This document shows, piece by piece, positions 4,400-19,021 of a DNA stretch of 20,622 nucleotides. Source of the stretch: a virus. The position numbers and the translations under genes were made by a program. Where the stretch lies: positions 1 to 20,622 of IMG/VR virus record IMGVR_UViG_3300031999_000236; one strand, written 5' to 3'. The notes beneath the pieces were generated by a model. It searched no databases, had not been told where the DNA came from, and saw nothing but the letters and a program-made list of their open reading frames with translations. Positions within the stretch are counted from its first letter, which is position 1, and every line of letters begins with the position of its first letter.

Positions 4400-4873
4400 T
4401 TAGTCCTCCCCTCTAACAAGGCGGTAGCCCCGGTCCAGGAATGTGTCCAAGAACTCCACTGCCTCTTCGATGGTCTCTGCAAAGTAACCGGCGTAATGTT
4501 TGCACCAAGGGTGATCCTTGGAACGTGTGCCAACCACTACCACCGGCTTGTGGTGAACTCCTGCGGCTAGGAACCATTCAAAGGCTGTTCCCCAACTTGC
4601 GTGGTTTCCTGTTAGGACAAGGAGCACATCACAACGCCGGATGTCATCTTCATCCCTCTGGACTAAGGCCGCCTCTGTGACCCCCAACAGGCGCGTGGTA
4701 TCCGGGCCGTCCATCGGTTCGGCTAATGTACTGAGGATCTCACGTCCTCGAAGAGGATCCAGCACATCCCAACCCCGCTCCAGTAGGAGAAGGGTGGCCT
4801 GGTGCCGTTCCTTGGCGGCGGCGGTATACATCCGTCCGGACAGTGTGCCGGACAAATACACACACCTTCTCAC
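4400..4873 (-). CDS. DUF4406 / nucleoside deoxyribosyltransferase-like protein
   Basis: 157 aa, GTG at 4873 overlapping the upstream TGA (GTGA). It opens with VYLSGTLSG, the first strand and loop of the nucleoside 2-deoxyribosyltransferase-like fold. 'RDEDDIRRCDVLLVLTGNHASWGTAFEWFLAAG' (73-105) follows, where the D-x-x-D and the S-x-G-T-x-x-E pattern form the nucleotide-binding/catalytic part of this superfamily (E likely the nucleophile position), then 'KPVVVVG'. The family handles deoxynucleosides or related nucleotides. With the Nmad1-like neighbour directly upstream it suggests a nucleotide-pool or base-modification role. The substrate cannot be told. Confidence 0.7.
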   Translation of the reverse strand: MRRCVYLSGTLSGRMYTAAAKERHQATLLLLERGWDVLDPLRGREILSTLAEPMDGPDTTRLLGVTEAALVQRDEDDIRRCDVLLVLTGNHASWGTAFEWFLAAGVHHKPVVVVGTRSKDHPWCKHYAGYFAETIEEAVEFLDTFLDRGYRLVRGED

Positions 4874-5184
4874 TTCACGGCCTCTTCCTCAAACAGGATC
4901 CACGCGATAAGGGAATAGACAGCTATGTCCCTGAAGGAGTCCACAATAGGTTCGTTCCTAAGCGTCCCGTTCCTGATGAAGGACTTGATCCGCGTCACCT
5001 TGTCATTGAGCCGGATGACCGCCCCGACCCACGGGGGTACGCCGAAGTCCTGGCTGGCCCGGATGTTGGCGAAGGGATCTTCGCCTACGCCATAATCTTG
5101 CTGCTTCGCTGAGTGCAATGCAGCGATCTGTTCCAACTTCTCTAGGAAGCGGCGGTCGCCGCCGCGCTCCTCAAACGTACACAT
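4870..5184 (-). CDS. Nmad1 / DUF1599-like protein
   Basis: 104 aa. ATG at 5184 follows the upstream TAG directly. The pattern 'ALHSAKQQDYG..EDPFANIRASQDFG', a central 'IRLNDKVTRIKSFIRNG', and 'VDSFRDIAVYSLIAW' near the C-terminus match what I recall of the DUF1599 family, renamed nucleotide modification associated domain 1. It is an all-helical, MazG-like arrangement with conserved K-x-x-D-Y, N and D-x-x-x-D/Y residues. Family members occur in phage gene groups linked to modified bases. The biochemical activity is not established here. It is coupled to the deoxyribosyltransferase-like gene by a GTGA overlap. Confidence 0.75.
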   Translation of the reverse strand: MCTFEERGGDRRFLEKLEQIAALHSAKQQDYGVGEDPFANIRASQDFGVPPWVGAVIRLNDKVTRIKSFIRNGTLRNEPIVDSFRDIAVYSLIAWILFEEEAVK

Positions 5185-5361: not shown

Positions 5362-6383
5362 TTCCCTCTCCTCCGGGGGTAGAACTCTCCCTCAGCGCGA
5401 AAACCATCGGGGTAGATTTGAACTAGGACAAGATGGACTTTGCCCTTCGCCACCACACCGTAGGTGAACCCCTGCTGCCAGTTGGGGAAGGGCGCATACT
5501 CAAGGTCAAAACGACAGAGGCAGGCATTCTCAATGTAGGAATGGCTGCCAGAAGCGTCCGTCCAGGCGTATGTACTGAGGTGGTGACTGTGCCCGCAGAG
5601 GCCAGATGAACCCGTGGCGATGGCCATGTAGCGGGAAACATTTACCGGGTAGGCTTTTGAGGCACTGGCTTTGTTCCCGTGCTCAATTCTGAAACCGAGG
5701 AAGTCCACCACACTCATGTACTTGAGGCCCTCGATCCCCAGGTCAGCAAAACCAAGTAGTTCTGGAACGTCTAGGGCACGTAGGGCGGACAGATCCTTTC
5801 CGTACCGCCACAACCAGCGGCGCAGTCTGTCCTCATGGTTGCCCTCAATGAAGATGCGGTGGGCCTTGGGGTTACGTTCTACCCTTGCGGCCAGCCAGTG
5901 GTGGGTATCGTCCAGTTCATCTTGGAGATGAAACCTTCGAGAGGGGTTCCTGTCGAAGATCGAGCAGTCGTAGAAGTCGGCGATGTCGCCGTTGTAGATC
6001 TCAATGTCTGGGGCCAGATCATTCCAGAACCGTTCAACTGCCGTTAGGGTCTTCTCGTCGTGGAATGGACGCTGGAGGTCGTTGATGACAAGGATCTTCG
6101 TCCCGTCTGGAACACTCCGAATCTTGACCTCGGCGAACTCCCGCGGAGTCTCGAAGAGGGCCTCTTTCCGTTCCCGGCTGCGGACGGCCTCATCCAGATG
6201 CTTGTTACAATAGAGGCGGTTGGGGGCCGTGGATTCAAAGGTGTTGATGCAATCAGGGAAACCACATGGCCGTGGGGCCACTCCCCCAGGATGCTTGGGG
6301 CAATATCTTGCGTTGGAGTTTGGGTTTGGCGGGGCGAAAATATCGCCACAGCCAGGGAACTGGCAGGGTCGTTCCCCACGCAC
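5358..6383 (-). CDS. Metallophosphoesterase with two N-terminal zinc fingers
   Basis: 341 aa from a GTG at 6383 with GAAGGGAGAGAG just upstream. Two similar fingers begin the protein: C7-x4-C12-x15-C28-x2-H31 and C40-x4-C45-x13-C59-x2-H62. The calcineurin-like domain follows from about residue 95: motif I NDLQRPFHD (101-109, with Gln where most members have His), motif II GD (132-133), motif III GNHEDR (181-186), then EHGN (234-237) and GHSHH (264-268). Such enzymes are two-metal phosphodiesterases or phosphatases; the fingers suggest nucleic acid as substrate, by inference. An 87-nt gap with no clear gene separates it from the polymerase. Confidence 0.85.
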   Translation of the reverse strand: MRGERPCQFPGCGDIFAPPNPNSNARYCPKHPGGVAPRPCGFPDCINTFESTAPNRLYCNKHLDEAVRSRERKEALFETPREFAEVKIRSVPDGTKILVINDLQRPFHDEKTLTAVERFWNDLAPDIEIYNGDIADFYDCSIFDRNPSRRFHLQDELDDTHHWLAARVERNPKAHRIFIEGNHEDRLRRWLWRYGKDLSALRALDVPELLGFADLGIEGLKYMSVVDFLGFRIEHGNKASASKAYPVNVSRYMAIATGSSGLCGHSHHLSTYAWTDASGSHSYIENACLCRFDLEYAPFPNWQQGFTYGVVAKGKVHLVLVQIYPDGFRAEGEFYPRRRGK

Positions 6384-6470: not shown

Positions 6471-9266
6471 CTACTGGTCTTCCCCTTCTTCTTTCCGTAA
6501 GTCGAGGATGTCGCCCCGCGCCGTCAACTTGTAGATCGGGTCGCCCCACGTCTTTCCCCAAGAGACTTCCACTGGGATAGACCACCCTAAGCGGGAATCG
6601 TCCGGTAGGATCAAGGTTAGGGCCGTCTGTTCCCAGAGGTGCTTGATGATCCTGGCGGTCTCCTCAGCGTAGGCATGATCCGGCCAGTAGAACTCGAACG
6701 TGATGGAGTCGTGGACCGAGATCACGGGGTAACACTGCCTCTTCTTCAACGCGGGTGCGTTCTCTGTAAGGTTGTGCGCCGCGCTGTGCAGTGTTGAGCA
6801 ACCTGACTGGATAGGATAGTTGATGCCTTCTCGTATGAGCGCCTCCAGATCGTTGAACCGCCGCATGGCCTTGAGCAGTGACGCCGCTGGGAAGTGGCGC
6901 CGCTGGCCGAAGATATTGTCTCGGTGTCCCAGTTCAATTACGTCCCGTCGCGCCTGGGAAAAGTAGACGGGAAGACTGGCCACTACCCGCATGTAGCGGG
7001 CCCGGATCTCCTGGGCATCTTCCGGACTACAATTGAGTCTGTCGGCGATCCCGTCGTCGGTGAGGCCGTACCCGATTCCGAACACAAGTACCTTGGCCTT
7101 GCGCCGGAGTTCGGGGTGCGCCTCCTTCCACTCGAAGTCCGTCATCTCCGGGTCAACTGGCCAGATGGCGCGGCCAATGTAGGCGTGGACATCCTGGCCG
7201 CTGGTGAGCACCTTCAGTAGGCCATCATCTCCCGCCGTATACGCCAGTCCCCAGACCTCGGCCTGGCTCCAGTCGGCGGTCATAAGACCGAACCCCTCCG
7301 GAGATGTGAATGTCCGGCAAAAGGCATCCTTGGTCCCCAGTTCCGGGATTTCCACGTTGGCCGGTTGGTTCTGCATGTTCGGGTCGGCCGAACTCAACCT
7401 CGTTGTTTCAGCGCCGCCCGGTCGGTAGGTACTACGGATGCGGTTGTCTGATTCAATAAAGCGGGCGAGTCCGCCATGTCCGTCCTTCCCATCGAGGTAG
7501 GTTCCCTTTGCCTTCCTTAGTTCCTTGAGTTCCATCAGGATGGGGAGGATAGGGTGGTCAACTTGGGCACGGACGGCAACCAGGGCGTCCGCCCCGGTCT
7601 GGTCGTGCTCGAAGCAGAGTCCAACGTCGCAGGCCTCACAGCCGCGGCCGCCGTCGGTCTTGAAGCCGCTGCGAGGCAACCCCAGTTCCTCGAAGAGGAT
7701 GTGCTGGAGGTTCCTGTGGTACATATAGTTCCAGGGTGCCTTGGTCTCCGGTAGGGGAATGGCCCAGAGCCGCGCCTCCGCGTCCGCGATACGCTGGGTG
7801 TAGTGGGAGCAGAGTTTCTCGAAGTAGTCCGTGTCCACGAGGACGCCGCGCTTTTCCATCTCCCAGCAGCAACGGATGAGAGGCTGAATGATCGCCTCCG
7901 ACGCCCAACGTGTGCCCTCAGCATCGGCCTTTGCCCGCAAGACCGGGACCACCCGCTCCACAGCGTCGGCATCGCCCGCACTGTATTTCCAAAGGATGTC
8001 GTCTGGGGCCTCCGCCATCTTTCGCTTGTTGCTGCTGACGGCGTTGATTTCAGCCTCGTAGTACGGCATCGGGGGATCCGCGTAATGGGCCGTCAAGATG
8101 GAGAGGCTGTGGCGTTTGGTCTTCCGTGCCTCCGGGGGCATGGCTGTCTCTGCAACCGCATGGTGCAGGAGCATGGTGTCTTCGATCTGGCCCTTGATCT
8201 CTATGCCGAAGGCGGTGGCGGCCGTCACGAATGGCCAATCTCCCCGCCTCTCAAGAAACCTTAAATCGAAGATGGCGTTCTGGCCAACCTTCTTCGTGTC
8301 GCTTCCGAAGATCTCCTTCAGGATGGTGATGACCTGGGGCCATTCGTCATCCGTCCAGTGGGAGTCAACCTCAGACTTCGGCACCTCCACGAGATAGGGT
8401 GGGCCGGATGGCCGCACAGACACGAAGAGGATCTCGGCCGCTGTCTTCGGCGGGCGCTTCTCCGCCAACAAGTTCTTTGCTATGCCCGGACTGATCTCCA
8501 CGATGTCCGGTGCCACCCGCTGGTGTGATAGGAGCGGGACCACGAATCCCTCACCGGGCTCGGTGGAGAAACTGATGCAGAGCAACTCGTCGTGCCGAAA
8601 ATCAAGCCCCGTGGTCTCGGTGTCGAAGGCTATCTCCTTCGTATCCGCATGAAGTAGGTAGTCTCTTAGGTTGGAGAGCTGGGCCAGTGTGGTGACGGCG
8701 GAGTAGTCACCAAGGCGGGGCTGGCCCAACTCTCCCGACGCTATGCGGAGGGCCTTCTCAAAATGGGTCTGCACGATGTCGGCGACGTGCCATTGGCCTC
8801 GAAGTAAGAAGGCCGGATGGTAGCTTGGAATGAATTTTATGCCTGTCTCCGGCTGTGTGAGGGTCTGTCCCAGAACCGAACTTAGGGTCACGGTCTGTCC
8901 GTAGACGCTTTGCAGGGCAACGTCTCCAAGTGTGACGACGCAAAGCGGTTTGGCCTCGGCCAACTCCTCCAGAAGGTATGGACGGCAGGCCCGGATCTCG
9001 GTTACTGTCGGGCGCCTATTTTGGGGAGGGTGGCACCGCACACTATTCGTAAGATATACCGTCTGTGGTGAGATACCCGCCATCTCGCAGAGCAGCCGGA
9101 GGAGCTGGCCGCTTGGCCCAACGAAGGCCTTGCCCTGGAGATCCTCTTCCTCGCCCGGCGCAAGTCCGACGAACATAATGCTACCGGGTGTTCCCCGGCC
9201 GCCGACGATGTGCTTACGGCACCGAGCGAGAGCAGGGCAGAGGTTACAGTCTGACGAGGGAGGCAT
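6471..9266 (-). CDS. Uracil-DNA glycosylase / family A DNA polymerase fusion
   Basis: 931 aa, the replicative polymerase. Residues 1-175 are a family-4-type uracil-DNA glycosylase: cysteines C7, C10, C78, C94 in the 4Fe-4S spacing, motif GLAPGEEED (34-42) and motif SYHPAFLLR (148-156). Residues about 205-445 are a DEDD 3'-5' exonuclease with all motifs intact: D215-T-E217, N330...D334, Y428...D432. The polymerase domain has TTRLSS..PN.QN (621-634), motif A D665-W-S-Q, motif B R721...K725...F729...Y733 and motif C H852-D853-S854 (Ser where Glu is usual). No 5' nuclease domain is present. A Cys-rich insert lies at 543-554. The position equivalent to E. coli F762 is Phe. Similar UDG-polymerase fusions are known, as I recall, in SPO1-like phages. 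It overlaps the upstream gene by 23 nt. Confidence 0.95.
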   Translation of the reverse strand: MPPSSDCNLCPALARCRKHIVGGRGTPGSIMFVGLAPGEEEDLQGKAFVGPSGQLLRLLCEMAGISPQTVYLTNSVRCHPPQNRRPTVTEIRACRPYLLEELAEAKPLCVVTLGDVALQSVYGQTVTLSSVLGQTLTQPETGIKFIPSYHPAFLLRGQWHVADIVQTHFEKALRIASGELGQPRLGDYSAVTTLAQLSNLRDYLLHADTKEIAFDTETTGLDFRHDELLCISFSTEPGEGFVVPLLSHQRVAPDIVEISPGIAKNLLAEKRPPKTAAEILFVSVRPSGPPYLVEVPKSEVDSHWTDDEWPQVITILKEIFGSDTKKVGQNAIFDLRFLERRGDWPFVTAATAFGIEIKGQIEDTMLLHHAVAETAMPPEARKTKRHSLSILTAHYADPPMPYYEAEINAVSSNKRKMAEAPDDILWKYSAGDADAVERVVPVLRAKADAEGTRWASEAIIQPLIRCCWEMEKRGVLVDTDYFEKLCSHYTQRIADAEARLWAIPLPETKAPWNYMYHRNLQHILFEELGLPRSGFKTDGGRGCEACDVGLCFEHDQTGADALVAVRAQVDHPILPILMELKELRKAKGTYLDGKDGHGGLARFIESDNRIRSTYRPGGAETTRLSSADPNMQNQPANVEIPELGTKDAFCRTFTSPEGFGLMTADWSQAEVWGLAYTAGDDGLLKVLTSGQDVHAYIGRAIWPVDPEMTDFEWKEAHPELRRKAKVLVFGIGYGLTDDGIADRLNCSPEDAQEIRARYMRVVASLPVYFSQARRDVIELGHRDNIFGQRRHFPAASLLKAMRRFNDLEALIREGINYPIQSGCSTLHSAAHNLTENAPALKKRQCYPVISVHDSITFEFYWPDHAYAEETARIIKHLWEQTALTLILPDDSRLGWSIPVEVSWGKTWGDPIYKLTARGDILDLRKEEGEDQ

Positions 9267-13668: not shown

Positions 13669-13889
13669 CCCAGTTCCTTCAAGACCGCACGGGCGGCCTC
13701 TTCTCCCTGTTCTGCGGTTCCTTGGCGCAGGATGCTCTGCTGAATGTGGTGGGAGGCCGTCCTACCATTTAAGCGGACGCGGATCGTCGCCCCCGGACGG
13801 TCGCGTGTTACTCGGATCGTAATGTTCTCTGCACCGGCCTGAGTCAGAGTCGTGTGATAGGCGGCCAAGAAACCTTTGGGCTTAGACAT
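13653..13889 (-). CDS. Small hypothetical protein
   Basis: 78 aa from ATG at 13889, which overlaps the recA-like stop by 8 nt and has GGAGGAG about 8 nt upstream. A longer in-frame ORF to 14171 lies within the recA-like gene and is discounted. The sequence 'ENITIRVTRDRPGATIRVRLNG' is a beta hairpin rich in Arg, followed by a helical 'AEQGEEAARAVLKELG' end. This alpha/beta layout could bind nucleic acid. No family recognised; coupling to the recombinase suggests an accessory role. Confidence 0.68.
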   Translation of the reverse strand: MSKPKGFLAAYHTTLTQAGAENITIRVTRDRPGATIRVRLNGRTASHHIQQSILRQGTAEQGEEAARAVLKELGCPNM

Positions 13890-14955
13890 CTGCCGTCTCC
13901 TCCGCCTTCTCATTCGGGTCCGGGCGCCATAGGAGCGGCGCCTCTTGTATCTTTTGGAGTAGTTCCGGACGCTCGGCCAGGACGGTAGGAAATTGACGCC
14001 GCTGAAACTTGATGCCGTCCAGCGAATACCACGGCCCCGCCTTGGTGACGATCTTGAGTGTCTCCAACAGGTCGAGTTGGCTGCCTTCTTTGTCCACACC
14101 ATCGATGGCGTCGATGTCGAACAACGTCTGCTTGCCCTCCGGGGCGATACTGCTCTTGCGGATCTCGGCACGCACGGTGATGCCCGTCTGCGCGTCGTCG
14201 TCTTTGATGACGCCCGTGCTGGTGAAGTAGACGAGCAACGAGCCCCAGAAGACCAACGCCCCCTCGCCCGTCATCGTGTGGCGCTTCATCGCCTTCCGCC
14301 GTTCCCTACTTCGTGGATCCCCCATGATGTCTAGGTGTTGGCGGAGTTGGTTGACAATGATGAGCGCGACCTTGTGCTCTGCGAGCATGGGCCCCAACCG
14401 TTGCATCTCCCGACTTATCGTTCGGGCAGCAAGGCCGAGTTGCGCCTGTTCACCGACAGCCAAATCCAGGTTCTTTTTGGCGTCCAGCGCCGAGAGCGAG
14501 TCAATAACGATACACACCAGACGGGCGGGGTCTTCCTCGCGGACCCACTTTATGATCTCTTCGATGACCACAAAGCAGTCCTCAAGGGTTGTGGGCGTCG
14601 GCATCACCAGCCGGGCAGGGATGAGGCCGAGGCGTTCTCCTCGGTCGCGGCTGTACCGATGCTCGGCGTCGATGAGGATCGCCAACCCGCCTCGGCGCTG
14701 GGTTTCCGCCAACACGTGGTATGCTACGGAAGACTTCCCGGCCCCCTCTTTGCCATAGAAGACGGTCACACGGCCAACGGGGATGCCGGGGCGCCCGATG
14801 GCGTAGTCCAGCATCGCGCATTGGGTACTGATGTACTCTTCTATGTCAGAGGTAAGGGGTTGAGAAGCGAGTTTCAGTTCAAACTTGGCAGCGAGACGCT
14901 CCTCAAACGTGCCGGATGCGTCCTCTGTTGGAGACGCTTTCGCCTTCCGTGCCAT
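13882..14955 (-). CDS. RecA/UvsX-like recombinase
   Basis: 357 aa, ATG at 14955 with GGGAGAGAG immediately before. Walker A GKEGAGKS (68-75) follows 'VGRVTVFY', Walker B is 'LVCIVIDS' (146-153), and a RecA-type L2 start 'IVNQLRQH' is present, followed by 'TGEGALVFWGSLLVYF' in place of the bacterial 'ggG.alkfyas'. The last 100 residues form a C-terminal region unlike bacterial RecA. It would form a filament on single-stranded DNA and carry out strand exchange, working with the gp32-like SSB upstream and the RecB-like nuclease and RuvC-like resolvase downstream. Annotation could equally be UvsX-like. Confidence 0.92.
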   Translation of the reverse strand: MARKAKASPTEDASGTFEERLAAKFELKLASQPLTSDIEEYISTQCAMLDYAIGRPGIPVGRVTVFYGKEGAGKSSVAYHVLAETQRRGGLAILIDAEHRYSRDRGERLGLIPARLVMPTPTTLEDCFVVIEEIIKWVREEDPARLVCIVIDSLSALDAKKNLDLAVGEQAQLGLAARTISREMQRLGPMLAEHKVALIIVNQLRQHLDIMGDPRSRERRKAMKRHTMTGEGALVFWGSLLVYFTSTGVIKDDDAQTGITVRAEIRKSSIAPEGKQTLFDIDAIDGVDKEGSQLDLLETLKIVTKAGPWYSLDGIKFQRRQFPTVLAERPELLQKIQEAPLLWRPDPNEKAEETADV

Positions 14956-15369: not shown

Positions 15370-16260
15370 CTATTCGGCCGCCGCCGTTTCCTTCCGGGCT
15401 GCCTGCAACTTCGCCCGAAGTGAGGCTCTACTCGCGGTCTCTTCTGCGGTCGGGGCCGCCTTTGCCTTCGGTGCAGGCGCGGCGGGTGGTTCCTCCGATT
15501 CCTCGGCGCTGAACTCACCCTCCACCACATCACCATCGGGCGGAGGTGGTAGTCCGGCACCCAACCGGGGGCGTGCCGCTGGTGCAGCCGCCGCCCCAAA
15601 GGGATCAGCCGGACCCGCCAGGATTTCCAGCATCCGCGCTGCGGTCAGCACCTCGTAGTTTGCCACGAGGTCGTTCATGTTCTCCAAGAGTTCCGGTGCC
15701 TCAAGAGGCAACGCGTCTGGAGCCAGGAGAACCTGATACCGGGTGTCCTGTACGCCTGTACCCTTGCGCCGAATGAGCACCGGCCGCCCCGTGTCCGGGT
15801 CGGTGATGTCCCGTTCGTCTTCGGGCAGTTCCTCGATGGCCTGGGTAAGGTCATCCAGGGTCGTTCGCGGACACGGCCAGATGCGAACAAGGTTTTCCTT
15901 TGGGGTGCCGTCGTCCTTCAACTCGACGACGTTCATGGCCGCATACCAACGCGGCCCCTTACCGTCGCCTTGCTCCCGTGCCTGGGCACAGGCCGGACAG
16001 GACTCGTCGTACATCTTCCGCAGGCAGACGAACGGCGCCCTGTTCGCCCCGTAGAAGTGTACGGCCACCGGGTAATAGAACAGGGTCTTTCCTGTGTCGG
16101 GATTCGCGGGCAGGTCTTCCCTCGGCGGGAGGATCCTGATCCAGTTGTCCCCCCACTTGCCGCCGGGCCCCGACTGCGGCTTGAACAGCGGGGTGCCCTC
16201 CGATAGGGCCTTGGCCGCCTCAACCGAGGCTTGTATGTCGGGCCTTCTCCATCCAGGCAC
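15370..16260 (-). CDS. T4 gp32-like single-stranded DNA-binding protein
   Basis: 296 aa from GTG at 16260, one nt after the upstream stop, with GGAGGG about 7 nt before. A zinc site H68-x10-C79-x8-C88-x2-C91 closely matches the spacing in T4 gp32. The OB-fold core reads 'WIRILPPREDLPANPDTGK..FYYPVAVHF' and later 'IRRKGTGVQDTRYQVLLAPDALPL'. Residues about 215-296 are a low-complexity Pro/Ala tail with an acidic patch (VVEGEFSAEESEE), the expected docking tail for replication partners, ending in a mixed-charge helix. It would coat single strands at the fork and during recombination. Confidence 0.88.
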   Translation of the reverse strand: MPGWRRPDIQASVEAAKALSEGTPLFKPQSGPGGKWGDNWIRILPPREDLPANPDTGKTLFYYPVAVHFYGANRAPFVCLRKMYDESCPACAQAREQGDGKGPRWYAAMNVVELKDDGTPKENLVRIWPCPRTTLDDLTQAIEELPEDERDITDPDTGRPVLIRRKGTGVQDTRYQVLLAPDALPLEAPELLENMNDLVANYEVLTAARMLEILAGPADPFGAAAAPAARPRLGAGLPPPPDGDVVEGEFSAEESEEPPAAPAPKAKAAPTAEETASRASLRAKLQAARKETAAAE

Positions 16261-16261
16261 G

Positions 16262-16435
16262 TTATCCCTCCACCTTCTTGAGGTAGTCCCTCACCAATTC
16301 ACCGGCACCGACGATGACGATGACCAGGAACGCCGTGGTGCTGGCACTGAAGCCCAGTGCCCCCACGACTGTCGCCGCCTTCGCCAACGCACCGGCCAGG
16401 GCCGCCAGCCCTATGATAAGTGCGTACTTCTTCAC
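16262..16435 (-). CDS. Small two-span membrane protein
   Basis: 57 aa from a GTG at 16435, with GGGAGAGAAC about 6 nt upstream; it ends one nt before the SSB start. It starts KKY, then a hydrophobic 'ALIIGLAALAGALAKAATVVGALGF', a short turn 'SAST', a second span 'TAFLVIVIVGAG', and a charged end 'ELVRDYLKKVEG'. This is the look of a small membrane hairpin. No family recognised. It could be holin-like or a membrane tether; placement between the SemiSWEET-like gene and SSB favours a role tied to those genes, by context only. Confidence 0.65.
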   Translation of the reverse strand: MKKYALIIGLAALAGALAKAATVVGALGFSASTTAFLVIVIVGAGELVRDYLKKVEG

Positions 16436-16454: not shown

Positions 16455-16742
16455 TTATTGCCACATGATAATCGCAACGATGGTGGCGCCGGTACATCCG
16501 GCACCCACCAGATTGACCGCTTCCAGAGCGCGGGAGTGGGCCTTTATGCTGGTGCCGATGAGCCCCACGCATCCGATGAGCAAGGCGATGAAGGCGGGGA
16601 GGCTAAGGCCGGAGACATTGCGTTGGGTAAAGACGGTCACGACCTGGGTTCCGTAGAAGACCAGGAGTCCGCCAATACCGGCGATGTTTGCCGTAGCCCC
16701 AAGGATTTGGGGAAGTCGCCGCCTTCTCATTTCCATTTTCAT
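16455..16742 (-). CDS. SemiSWEET / PQ-loop-like membrane protein
   Basis: 95 aa with three predicted spans at about 11-34, 47-64 and 74-93, the size and topology of a SemiSWEET half-transporter. At the end of span 1 the sequence TQVVTVFTQRNVSGLSLPAF (32-51) matches the family signature 'PQ-x-x-x-x-x-x-K-x-V-x-G-x-S-x-P', with Thr for Pro. Asn77 in span 3 sits where the family has its conserved Asn, while the Trp of span 2 is missing. SemiSWEETs are dimeric sugar transporters. A phage copy is unexpected, and substrate and activity are unknown. The start has a poor ribosome site; nearby in-frame ATGs (residues 3 and 5) are alternatives. Confidence 0.65.
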   Translation of the reverse strand: MKMEMRRRRLPQILGATANIAGIGGLLVFYGTQVVTVFTQRNVSGLSLPAFIALLIGCVGLIGTSIKAHSRALEAVNLVGAGCTGATIVAIIMWQ

Positions 16743-16751
16743 TCTGCCAGA

Positions 16752-17669
16752 TCACCCTACATAATTGTCAAGGGCTTCCTTGATCGTGCCTTCCAGAATC
16801 CCAGGAGGTGCGTCGCTGGGGTCCATTCCTTCTGGCAGCCGGGCCTCGACGTGGGGTATGCCGTGGCTCCAGAGACTCTTGTGTATCTGACCGCTGGCAC
16901 TACGTCCGGCCTTGTCGCCATCCATGAGAATGACGAACGGTCGCCACCCTACCGGCAGACGCCCGACCAGGGTGATCTGTTGCGCCGACATCTGGCTACC
17001 CAGGATGGCGACTGCACAGTTGGGCATCCGCAACGCATCGAAAACACCCTCCGTGATGATGAGGGGCCGCGGATGTTGCAGCCGCTCCAGTCTGTCGAGG
17101 TTGAACACCACATCGCTCCGACGGCTGCCTTTCGGATAGAGCACCTTTGGTTCGACTTCCGGGACGACAGCACGAGCGACGAAGGTATAGAGTTGCTTGC
17201 GGTACTCGACCGGAATGATGAGGCGCCCCGCGTAGTATCCAGTTGGGCAGAAGCCGATCCGATATGCGCAAGCGCGAGCCGGAGGAATGTGGCGGGCCTC
17301 CAAGTAGAAGCGCACTTCCGGCCATGCGGTTGCTGGCGCGTACTCCGCCGGTAGTTCTACCCCTGGTACTGGTGCCGGGATGTTGCCACCGAACCGGAAC
17401 TTGGGATCTGTCCGGAAGCGCACTTTGCGCCGGGCCTCGAACGCCTCTGTTGGTTCTAGACCTACGACACGGTGGAAGAAGTCGAACAAGTCGCCCCTCT
17501 CCTGACAGCGGAAACATATCCAAACCCCAGTCTCCGCCTCGATGTAGAGTGTATGCTTTTCCTCACCACAGAGCGGACAGGCCCTCCGAATCTCGGTGCC
17601 GTCCTCCACCAGTTCGGCCTCGATGCCGCCGTCGATGAGGAACTCTATGAGGGCATCTGGATCTATCAT
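16752..17669 (-). CDS. DNA primase, zinc ribbon plus TOPRIM
   Basis: 305 aa, ATG at 17669 overlapping the helicase stop (ATGA). The N-terminal zinc ribbon has four cysteines, C31-x2-C34 and C52-x2-C55, where DnaG primases usually have CHC2. A short linker region with 'FYLEARHI...CAYRIGFCPTGYYAGRLIIPVEY' matches the DnaG RNA-polymerase entry. The TOPRIM core has E207 in ITEGVFDAL and D250-G-D252 in ILMDGDKAG, the metal-binding residues. The short length and the lack of a helicase-binding C-terminal domain are typical of phage primases. It would lay primers for the lagging strand together with the overlapping helicase gene. Confidence 0.92.
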   Translation of the reverse strand: MIDPDALIEFLIDGGIEAELVEDGTEIRRACPLCGEEKHTLYIEAETGVWICFRCQERGDLFDFFHRVVGLEPTEAFEARRKVRFRTDPKFRFGGNIPAPVPGVELPAEYAPATAWPEVRFYLEARHIPPARACAYRIGFCPTGYYAGRLIIPVEYRKQLYTFVARAVVPEVEPKVLYPKGSRRSDVVFNLDRLERLQHPRPLIITEGVFDALRMPNCAVAILGSQMSAQQITLVGRLPVGWRPFVILMDGDKAGRSASGQIHKSLWSHGIPHVEARLPEGMDPSDAPPGILEGTIKEALDNYVG

Positions 17670-19021
17670 GGTTCCTCTCCTCCTACCAGCACGGGGAGGC
17701 CGTGCGTTGTTTGTACTTCGAGTGCCGGGAACCCATTATCTCCTCGTCCGAAGCTGGAGACACAACGCAACCAACCGCCGGTGGTGCCGTGTAAACTATC
17801 CTTGAGAACAAAAATGTTTGCCCAAGGCCCCTCCACGTCGTCCCGTTCCTGGTCTGTCTGGGCCAGCCCCAAGACAAAGTGCGCTTTCTGGGCCTTGGCA
17901 AAGGAGGCCCCCACATGCTTGAGGCTTATGCGGGCCTTGTCCACCGCCTCCCTTGTGGCCTGGCCGGTGGTCCAGATCGGTACTTCCCGCCCCTGTGCTA
18001 CCTCGCCGCGGAGCGTACTGAAGATCTCCTTCAACTCTTCCCATCCCTGCTTCCTCTGGCGCTCCGGCACAAGCTCATCCGCTGAGTCCAAAACTATCAA
18101 CCCCGGTGGTTGGCCGGTCTCGGCGATGTACTGGTCGATGTCGTGGATGAGGTCGCGCACAGTCATAAGCCCCGTCCGAACATCTATGTCTGCGACCGGG
18201 GGTTCCTTCATGTGCCGACCCTTGGTGGCGCGGCCCACCTCCGTCTGCCAGAGTGTCTTGTGTAAAGGCTCGTTCCTGCCCCACCCCAAACTGCGGGTGC
18301 CTTTCTGGAGGATGCCTGTTACCACACGACGCAATATCTGGTTGGGCGTCAGTTCGAAAGTGTAGTAGAGGACGTTCCTGTTTTTCCAGAAGGCCTCCAC
18401 CGCCATGCCGACGGCTATCATCGATTTCCCTACCCCTGTGGGGCCGAGTATGATCCCCAATTCGCCGGGGTGGATTCCGCCTTCCCAGAGTTTGTCCAGA
18501 TCGTAGAGGCCGGTAGGGATAGCGCCGCCGGAGAACCCATGTGGCGGTTGCCCTATGAATGCAGACAGCCGCACGTTCTCGTCGATATCCACGGTGCTGG
18601 ACAGGGCCGTACTTAGTTTCTCCCTGGCCTTGTCCACGTCGCCCCGGTCCAGGGCGGCACCCGCCTGCTCGACATAGGCGCCCATCGAATACTGTTCCAA
18701 CCATGCCGTACACACTTCGCGGGTGTAGGGTAGGGCGGATTTGTCCGGTGCATAGGCATCCAGATCCAGGTACAGACGAATGACCGCTTCCTCCGTCGCC
18801 CGCATCTTCCGGAGTTGGGTGTACTCGACTTCGAGGGCCTGGTTCAGGACCGAGGACGTGACTGTGTTGCGGTACTTGGTCCATTGCCGGAGGGCGAGGT
18901 CGGCCAGAAACTTCATTGGTCCCGGTGGGAAGATTGAGGGAGACAGGTTCTTGTGGGCCCGGAGGAAGTCCTCGTCGTGCAGAATCAAATAAATCGTGCG
19001 GTAGGCGGTCTCATCCGTCAT
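17666..19021 (-). CDS. DnaB-like replicative helicase
   Basis: 451 aa, ATG at 19021 overlapping the upstream stop (ATGA). Residues 1-110 are a helical DnaB-N-like domain. The RecA-fold motor starts near 165 with 'IPTGLYDLDKLWEGGIHPGELGII', Walker A GPTGVGKS (193-200), an acidic 'YTFELT' (220-225), Walker B LIVLD (308-312), a 'TTGQATREA' sensor strand (351-359) and 'HFVLGLAQT'. It would be a ring-shaped 5'-3' helicase that unwinds the fork. The order small protein, helicase, primase, all overlapping by 4 nt, is a standard phage replisome operon. Confidence 0.93.
   Translation of the reverse strand: MTDETAYRTIYLILHDEDFLRAHKNLSPSIFPPGPMKFLADLALRQWTKYRNTVTSSVLNQALEVEYTQLRKMRATEEAVIRLYLDLDAYAPDKSALPYTREVCTAWLEQYSMGAYVEQAGAALDRGDVDKAREKLSTALSSTVDIDENVRLSAFIGQPPHGFSGGAIPTGLYDLDKLWEGGIHPGELGIILGPTGVGKSMIAVGMAVEAFWKNRNVLYYTFELTPNQILRRVVTGILQKGTRSLGWGRNEPLHKTLWQTEVGRATKGRHMKEPPVADIDVRTGLMTVRDLIHDIDQYIAETGQPPGLIVLDSADELVPERQRKQGWEELKEIFSTLRGEVAQGREVPIWTTGQATREAVDKARISLKHVGASFAKAQKAHFVLGLAQTDQERDDVEGPWANIFVLKDSLHGTTGGWLRCVSSFGRGDNGFPALEVQTTHGLPVLVGGEEP

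Follow-up and report, generated by a model that had tools for sequence, protein, structure and literature searches.

The whole 20,622-nucleotide stretch of viral DNA analysed here, referred to as the window (IMG/VR record IMGVR_UViG_3300031999_000236), carries on its minus strand, at 16455-16742, a gene for a 95-residue membrane protein of three spans that is probably related in fold to the PQ-loop/SemiSWEET proteins. What sets it apart from the viral PQ-loop proteins already annotated is the loss of transport residues together with a fixed position within a run of replication genes. The genes that define this position are:

17666..19021, minus strand: DnaB-like replicative helicase (phrog_19, E 4e-43)
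16752..17669, minus strand: primase with zinc ribbon and Toprim (phrog_47, E 5e-50; Toprim_2, E 1e-7)
16455..16742, minus strand: 95-aa three-span PQ-loop/SemiSWEET-like protein (ORF, four homologues in the same slot, dN/dS, sub-threshold MtN3_slv/PQ-loop matches, profile comparison against shuffles)
16262..16435, minus strand: 57-aa hydrophobic protein, probably of two spans, beside the three-span gene in all five phages (hydropathy, homologues)
15370..16260, minus strand: gp32-like single-strand DNA-binding protein, SSB (PF08804, E 8.8e-9; phrog_1192, E 4e-14)
13882..14955, minus strand: RecA/UvsX-like recombinase (RecA, E 4e-34)

The 95-aa ORF is a genuine gene and no chance frame, because homologues occupy the same position in four further phage contigs and pairwise dN/dS values lie between 0.21 and 0.56 (four of the five members). 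Its product reads MKMEMRRRRLPQILGATANIAGIGGLLVFYGTQVVTVFTQRNVSGLSLPAFIALLIGCVGLIGTSIKAHSRALEAVNLVGAGCTGATIVAIIMWQ. Codon 1, 3 or 5 may serve as the start, the homologues beginning with MRRRR in two cases and with MEMRRRR in one. Scans of IMG/VR returned homologues 73-77% identical (76, 77 and 73%) in three contigs (L002, L003 and L005/L006), and alignment searches with the primase and SSB returned only these same three; a fourth contig (L108), reached through a scan with the 57-aa neighbour, encodes a three-span protein of 59% identity. At the sensitivity of the searches run, no relatives of the 95-aa protein were found in 50,697 phage records or 72,556 plasmids (tblastn), nor in 84,980 bacterial and archaeal genomes scanned with the four-member alignment. 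The initial annotation gave the coordinates exactly while leaving the strand unstated; the plus-strand reading of 16455-16742 is an unrelated antisense frame. It also placed the gene between primase and SSB, which is correct as to the flanks, except that the 57-aa gene intervenes before the SSB.

Along the minus strand the order runs from the helicase through the primase, the 95-aa gene, the 57-aa gene and the SSB, with the recombinase further on. Nine bases separate the primase stop from the start of the 95-aa ORF, and the intergenic gaps from primase to SSB measure 1 to 19 bases, so that these four genes likely share a single transcript. The order primase, 95-aa gene, 57-aa gene and SSB is identical in all five phages. 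One phage (L005) differs in carrying an extra 131-aa ORF ahead of the SSB, between it and the 57-aa gene (L005 6443-6838; G003 35098-35493), with no family match. The 57-aa protein is 74-96% identical across the five phages (tblastn) and is better conserved than its three-span neighbour; family scans gave no informative match for it.

Several other minus-strand ORFs of the window were recognised in passing. A 931-aa protein (6471-9266), conserved in the other contigs, joins an N-terminal uracil-DNA-glycosylase domain (E 3.7e-30) to 3'-5' exonuclease and family A DNA polymerase domains. A Nucleoside 2-deoxyribosyltransferase-like protein (4400-4873; PF05014, at its cut-off) is adjoined by a DUF1599 'nucleotide modification associated' protein (4870-5184; below cut-off), and a 186-aa phage protein (688-1248) ends in a C-terminal DnaJ domain (E 1.1e-8).

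Within the 95-aa protein hydropathy and both AF2 models place three transmembrane helices in fewer than about 100 residues, as is characteristic of SemiSWEETs. The elements referred to below are:

16716..16727, minus strand: invariant RRRR (R6-R9) adjoining TM1, part of the basic N-terminus (five of five members; charge table)
16629..16700, minus strand: TM1, roughly residues 15-38 (hydropathy; helix in both AF2 models)
16644..16649, minus strand: T32-Q33, the PQ motif position, with Pro replaced and Gln kept (SemiSWEET alignment)
16596..16613, minus strand: SGLSLP, residues 44-49, equivalent of the SemiSWEET (D/G)(I/L)S element (alignment)
16539..16601, minus strand: TM2, residues 48-68, with F51 (inner gate), G57 and L61 (Trp in SemiSWEETs) (AF2 model, alignment)
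16461..16532, minus strand: TM3, residues 71-94 (AF2 model, hydropathy)
16512..16514, minus strand: N77, equivalent of the pocket Asn, EcSemiSWEET N66 (five of five phage members and 37 of 37 SemiSWEETs)

The case for kinship begins with family scores that are consistently low. MtN3_slv (PF03083) is the top Pfam match in three of the five members, always below the gathering cut-off of 23.7 bits: the matching members score 13.5-18.7 bits, with E-values of 0.076 (window), 0.038 (L002) and 0.0018 (L005), and the Pfam family scan gave no MtN3 match for the L003 and L108 proteins. Searched by itself, the MtN3_slv model recovered the gene in all four records tested. A search of the PDB with the protein or its profile returned no relative. 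When the phage family was aligned by hhalign with 37 SemiSWEET sequences gathered from genomes, residues 28-79 fell on SemiSWEET residues 15-66 as an ungapped match with a score of 24.9 (P 4e-4). Control alignments, in which columns were permuted within each predicted segment to preserve hydropathy and topology, scored 12.0 +/- 2.5, and the real score (z 5.3) was reached in 0 of 400 and 0 of 1,000 trials; a reversed SemiSWEET profile scored 11.7. With HMMER, a single sequence among 4,997 shuffled ones exceeded the bit scores of four real members. By both methods the profile similarity to the PQ-loop/TOG superfamily extends beyond composition and topology.

Structure prediction adds compatibility rather than proof. 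From four phage sequences alone AF2 built three helices at pLDDT 59, a confidence too low for use, and Foldseek and VIA searches with this model retrieved a mixture of three-helix bundles, among which SemiSWEET 4rng ranked fourth (E 2.8). Once 26 real SemiSWEETs were included in the alignment, the model took on the SemiSWEET fold, in crystal structures a TM1-TM3-TM2 bundle, with a pLDDT of 87. The best matches to it in the PDB were SemiSWEETs (5uhs, VIA Z 13.1, 1.2 A over 81 residues), followed by the mitochondrial pyruvate carrier (Z about 10) and SWEETs. The added sequences bring the fold along with them, so that this second model is partly circular and demonstrates only that the protein is compatible with the SemiSWEET fold. 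The mitochondrial pyruvate carrier, likewise a half-unit of this fold, is a heterodimer with amphipathic N-terminal helices (PMC12007569); it has no sequence match to the phage protein, and the MPC family is absent from the Pfam hits.

The SemiSWEET likeness could in principle reflect convergence among short hydrophobic proteins of unrelated fold, a reading that overlaps the functional alternatives considered below. It draws on the fact that every family score lies under its cut-off and that AF2 leaves the fold unsettled unless sequences are borrowed. We regard it as improbable, given that the landmarks match without gaps and that shuffles preserving topology and composition fall short of the real score. 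An absent PQ-loop profile match or a different predicted topology had been named beforehand as grounds for abandoning the kinship; an MtN3_slv/PQ-loop match is found, at sub-threshold scores only, and three helices are predicted, at low confidence where phage sequences stand alone. The three spans and the signature TQVVTVFTQRNVSGLSLPAF put forward in the initial annotation hold, as does the conserved third-span Asn, which is N77, and the PQ-loop/SemiSWEET kinship is probably correct at the level of the fold. The motif reads TQ and not PQ in the window protein.

What the protein retains of a SemiSWEET is specific. Q33, S47, G57 and N77 match Q20, S34, G44 and N64 of LbSemiSWEET (4QNC) at a constant offset of 13 with no gaps, and in all five members these four residues (S47 within SGLSLP) are kept together with the inner-gate aromatics Y30 and F51. 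Three spans and this spacing are thus common to the phage protein and to bacterial SemiSWEETs (MtN3_slv, PF03083), including EcSemiSWEET (4X5M/4X5N). What it has lost is equally consistent. The proline of the PQ motif, present in 37 of 37 SemiSWEETs, is replaced in every member (T, T, V, T, F) while the Gln remains; the TM2 pocket Trp, likewise present in 37 of 37 SemiSWEETs, is Leu in 5/5; the TM1 pocket Thr pair has become LL in 5/5; and the outer-gate Tyr is gone from all five (T, T, T, T, A). In EcSemiSWEET substitution of the hinge proline (P21A) nearly abolishes sucrose uptake, N66A, F19A and Y40A reduce it, and W50A and Y53F cause no reduction of transport (PMC4309421). The absence of the proline is therefore the strongest argument against ordinary transport, and the absence of the Trp and Tyr weighs less.

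The distribution of charge also departs from that of SemiSWEETs. The N-terminus carries +3 to +4 and loop 1 carries 0 to +1 in the four members measured, whereas in the SemiSWEETs used for comparison the N-terminal charge is about 0 and that of loop 1 mostly +2 to +3. By the positive-inside rule this pattern predicts an N-in orientation, opposite to that of SemiSWEETs, in which the TM1-TM2 loop is cytoplasmic. The mitochondrial pyruvate carrier was considered as a precedent for inversion and dropped, its orientation being disputed and a recent paper placing the N-terminus outside (PMC12007569). These comparisons do not support the sugar-transport role suggested at the outset, since every member lacks the hinge proline, both pocket elements (the Trp and the Thr pair) and the Tyr of the outer gate, and the charges predict the opposite orientation; the accompanying suggestion of a membrane anchor lies closer to the reading we favour.

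That reading, which we hold tentatively, is of a phage-specific, degenerate half-PQ-loop membrane accessory of infection rather than a sugar carrier. The protein would descend from the SemiSWEET/MtN3 family, or have its fold, its three helices probably assembling as a dimer. It lacks the parts of a sugar carrier (the TM1 hinge proline, the Thr/Trp pocket and the outer gate) and retains the Gln, the TM3 Asn and the aromatics of the inner gate. Produced together with the replication proteins and acting alongside the 57-aa protein as a membrane partner, it would be embedded in the inner membrane of the host, its basic RRRR N-terminus facing the cytoplasm, and may either dock the replication apparatus or alter the host membrane. 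The same gene order within the replication run of five phages and the basic N-terminus of all five members speak for an accessory of this kind. On the other side, an invariant TM3 Asn and inner-gate aromatics are not obviously needed by a pure anchor, and the neighbourhood by itself is weak evidence for a physical link to the replisome. We infer the dimer, the orientation, the co-expression and the accessory role, and taken together they have somewhat less than an even chance of being right. It is unlikely that the protein goes further and represents a SemiSWEET-type half-transporter turned into a standing component of the replication machinery, which, inverted relative to its ancestor and together with its 57-aa partner, would hold primase, helicase or SSB at the inner membrane.

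The main rival to an accessory role is a working small-solute facilitator, a SemiSWEET-fold dimer in which, while the phage replicates, N77 and the inner gate would pass a non-sugar metabolite such as a nucleoside, organic acid or ion. It owes this standing to the invariance of N77 and the inner gate and to the mitochondrial pyruvate carrier, which achieves transport on the same fold although its sequence does not resemble that of SemiSWEETs (PMC12007569). The invariant residues include Q33 beside N77, Y30 and F51, and EcSemiSWEET is still a working transporter with W50A and Y53F (PMC4309421). Working against a facilitator are the absence from all five members of the hinge proline that EcSemiSWEET requires, a pocket made up mostly of leucine with one polar residue, and the opposite orientation predicted by the charges, and on balance we consider it somewhat unlikely.

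A role in superinfection exclusion or host-membrane takeover, as an early small membrane protein hindering the DNA entry of competing phages, is unlikely. The protein is small, basic and hydrophobic, occurs only on phage contigs in these searches and is encoded among genes expected to be expressed early, and early T4 proteins with an exclusion role exist, such as Spackle (PMC7677548), which is periplasmic and unrelated. It shows, however, no sequence relationship to known exclusion proteins, and it is conserved inside the replication run and not among accessory genes.

A true SemiSWEET acquired from a host and acting as a plain sugar transporter would account for the fold-level similarity and the TM3 Asn; it is very improbable in view of the residues lost from every member, the failure to find a close host homologue in the 84,980 genomes, and the lack of sugar genes noticed among the window proteins scanned. 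Equally remote is a holin/antiholin pair inside the replication cluster, for although a three-span protein of 95 aa and a probably two-span protein of 57 aa with a charged C-terminus fit holin classes in size and spans, the one weak match of a member to a holin PHROG (E 0.31) is at chance level, no recognised endolysin adjoins the genes, a holin would not be expected to space Q, S, G and N in the manner specific to PQ-loop proteins, and neither holin family similarity nor a lysis-cassette location was found, the neighbourhood being one of replication genes in 5/5.

If the fold relationship holds, the phage protein has preserved a PQ-loop architecture although parts of the transport apparatus are gone, and its gene, unlike an optional metabolic one, travels with core replication genes. 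It would then offer a test case for the reuse of a transporter fold and a lead on the membrane tethering of replication in tailed phages of this group. It is also a warning not to annotate genes of this kind as sugar-transport auxiliary metabolic genes.

PQ-loop proteins are already annotated in viruses. Within the collection of papers searched, none dealt with SemiSWEET or PQ-loop proteins of phages. BFVD lists a 'SemiSWEET' (A0A8S5P1N9, Myoviridae sp. ctrf010), a 'PQ-loop repeat' protein (A0A6J7X7D0, uncultured Caudovirales phage) and several giant-virus examples. Compared through their Foldseek matches, these are of similar size to the phage protein, reach a TM-score by query of 0.75-0.77 to the alignment-assisted model and share 10-20% identity with it. 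A SemiSWEET also occurs on MT837855.1, an unverified 10-kb scaffold from a faecal 'phage', which was disregarded because it may be host DNA. Queries with SemiSWEETs or PQ-loop proteins hit three PHROGs of 'unknown function', phrog_25992 (E 9.7e-6), phrog_37682 (E 5e-4) and phrog_2642 (E 0.028), two clearly and one weakly, so that these may be PQ-loop families that lack the label. A 315-kb viral contig (L015) also encodes, at 5983-6249, an evident PQ-loop protein (PF04193, E 3.6e-11), which keeps the PQ, W and YG and has Ser at the position of the TM3 Asn. An SSB-like ORF lies three ORFs upstream of this gene, and small hydrophobic and SPFH-like ORFs lie just downstream, the SSB and SPFH assignments having been made by eye.
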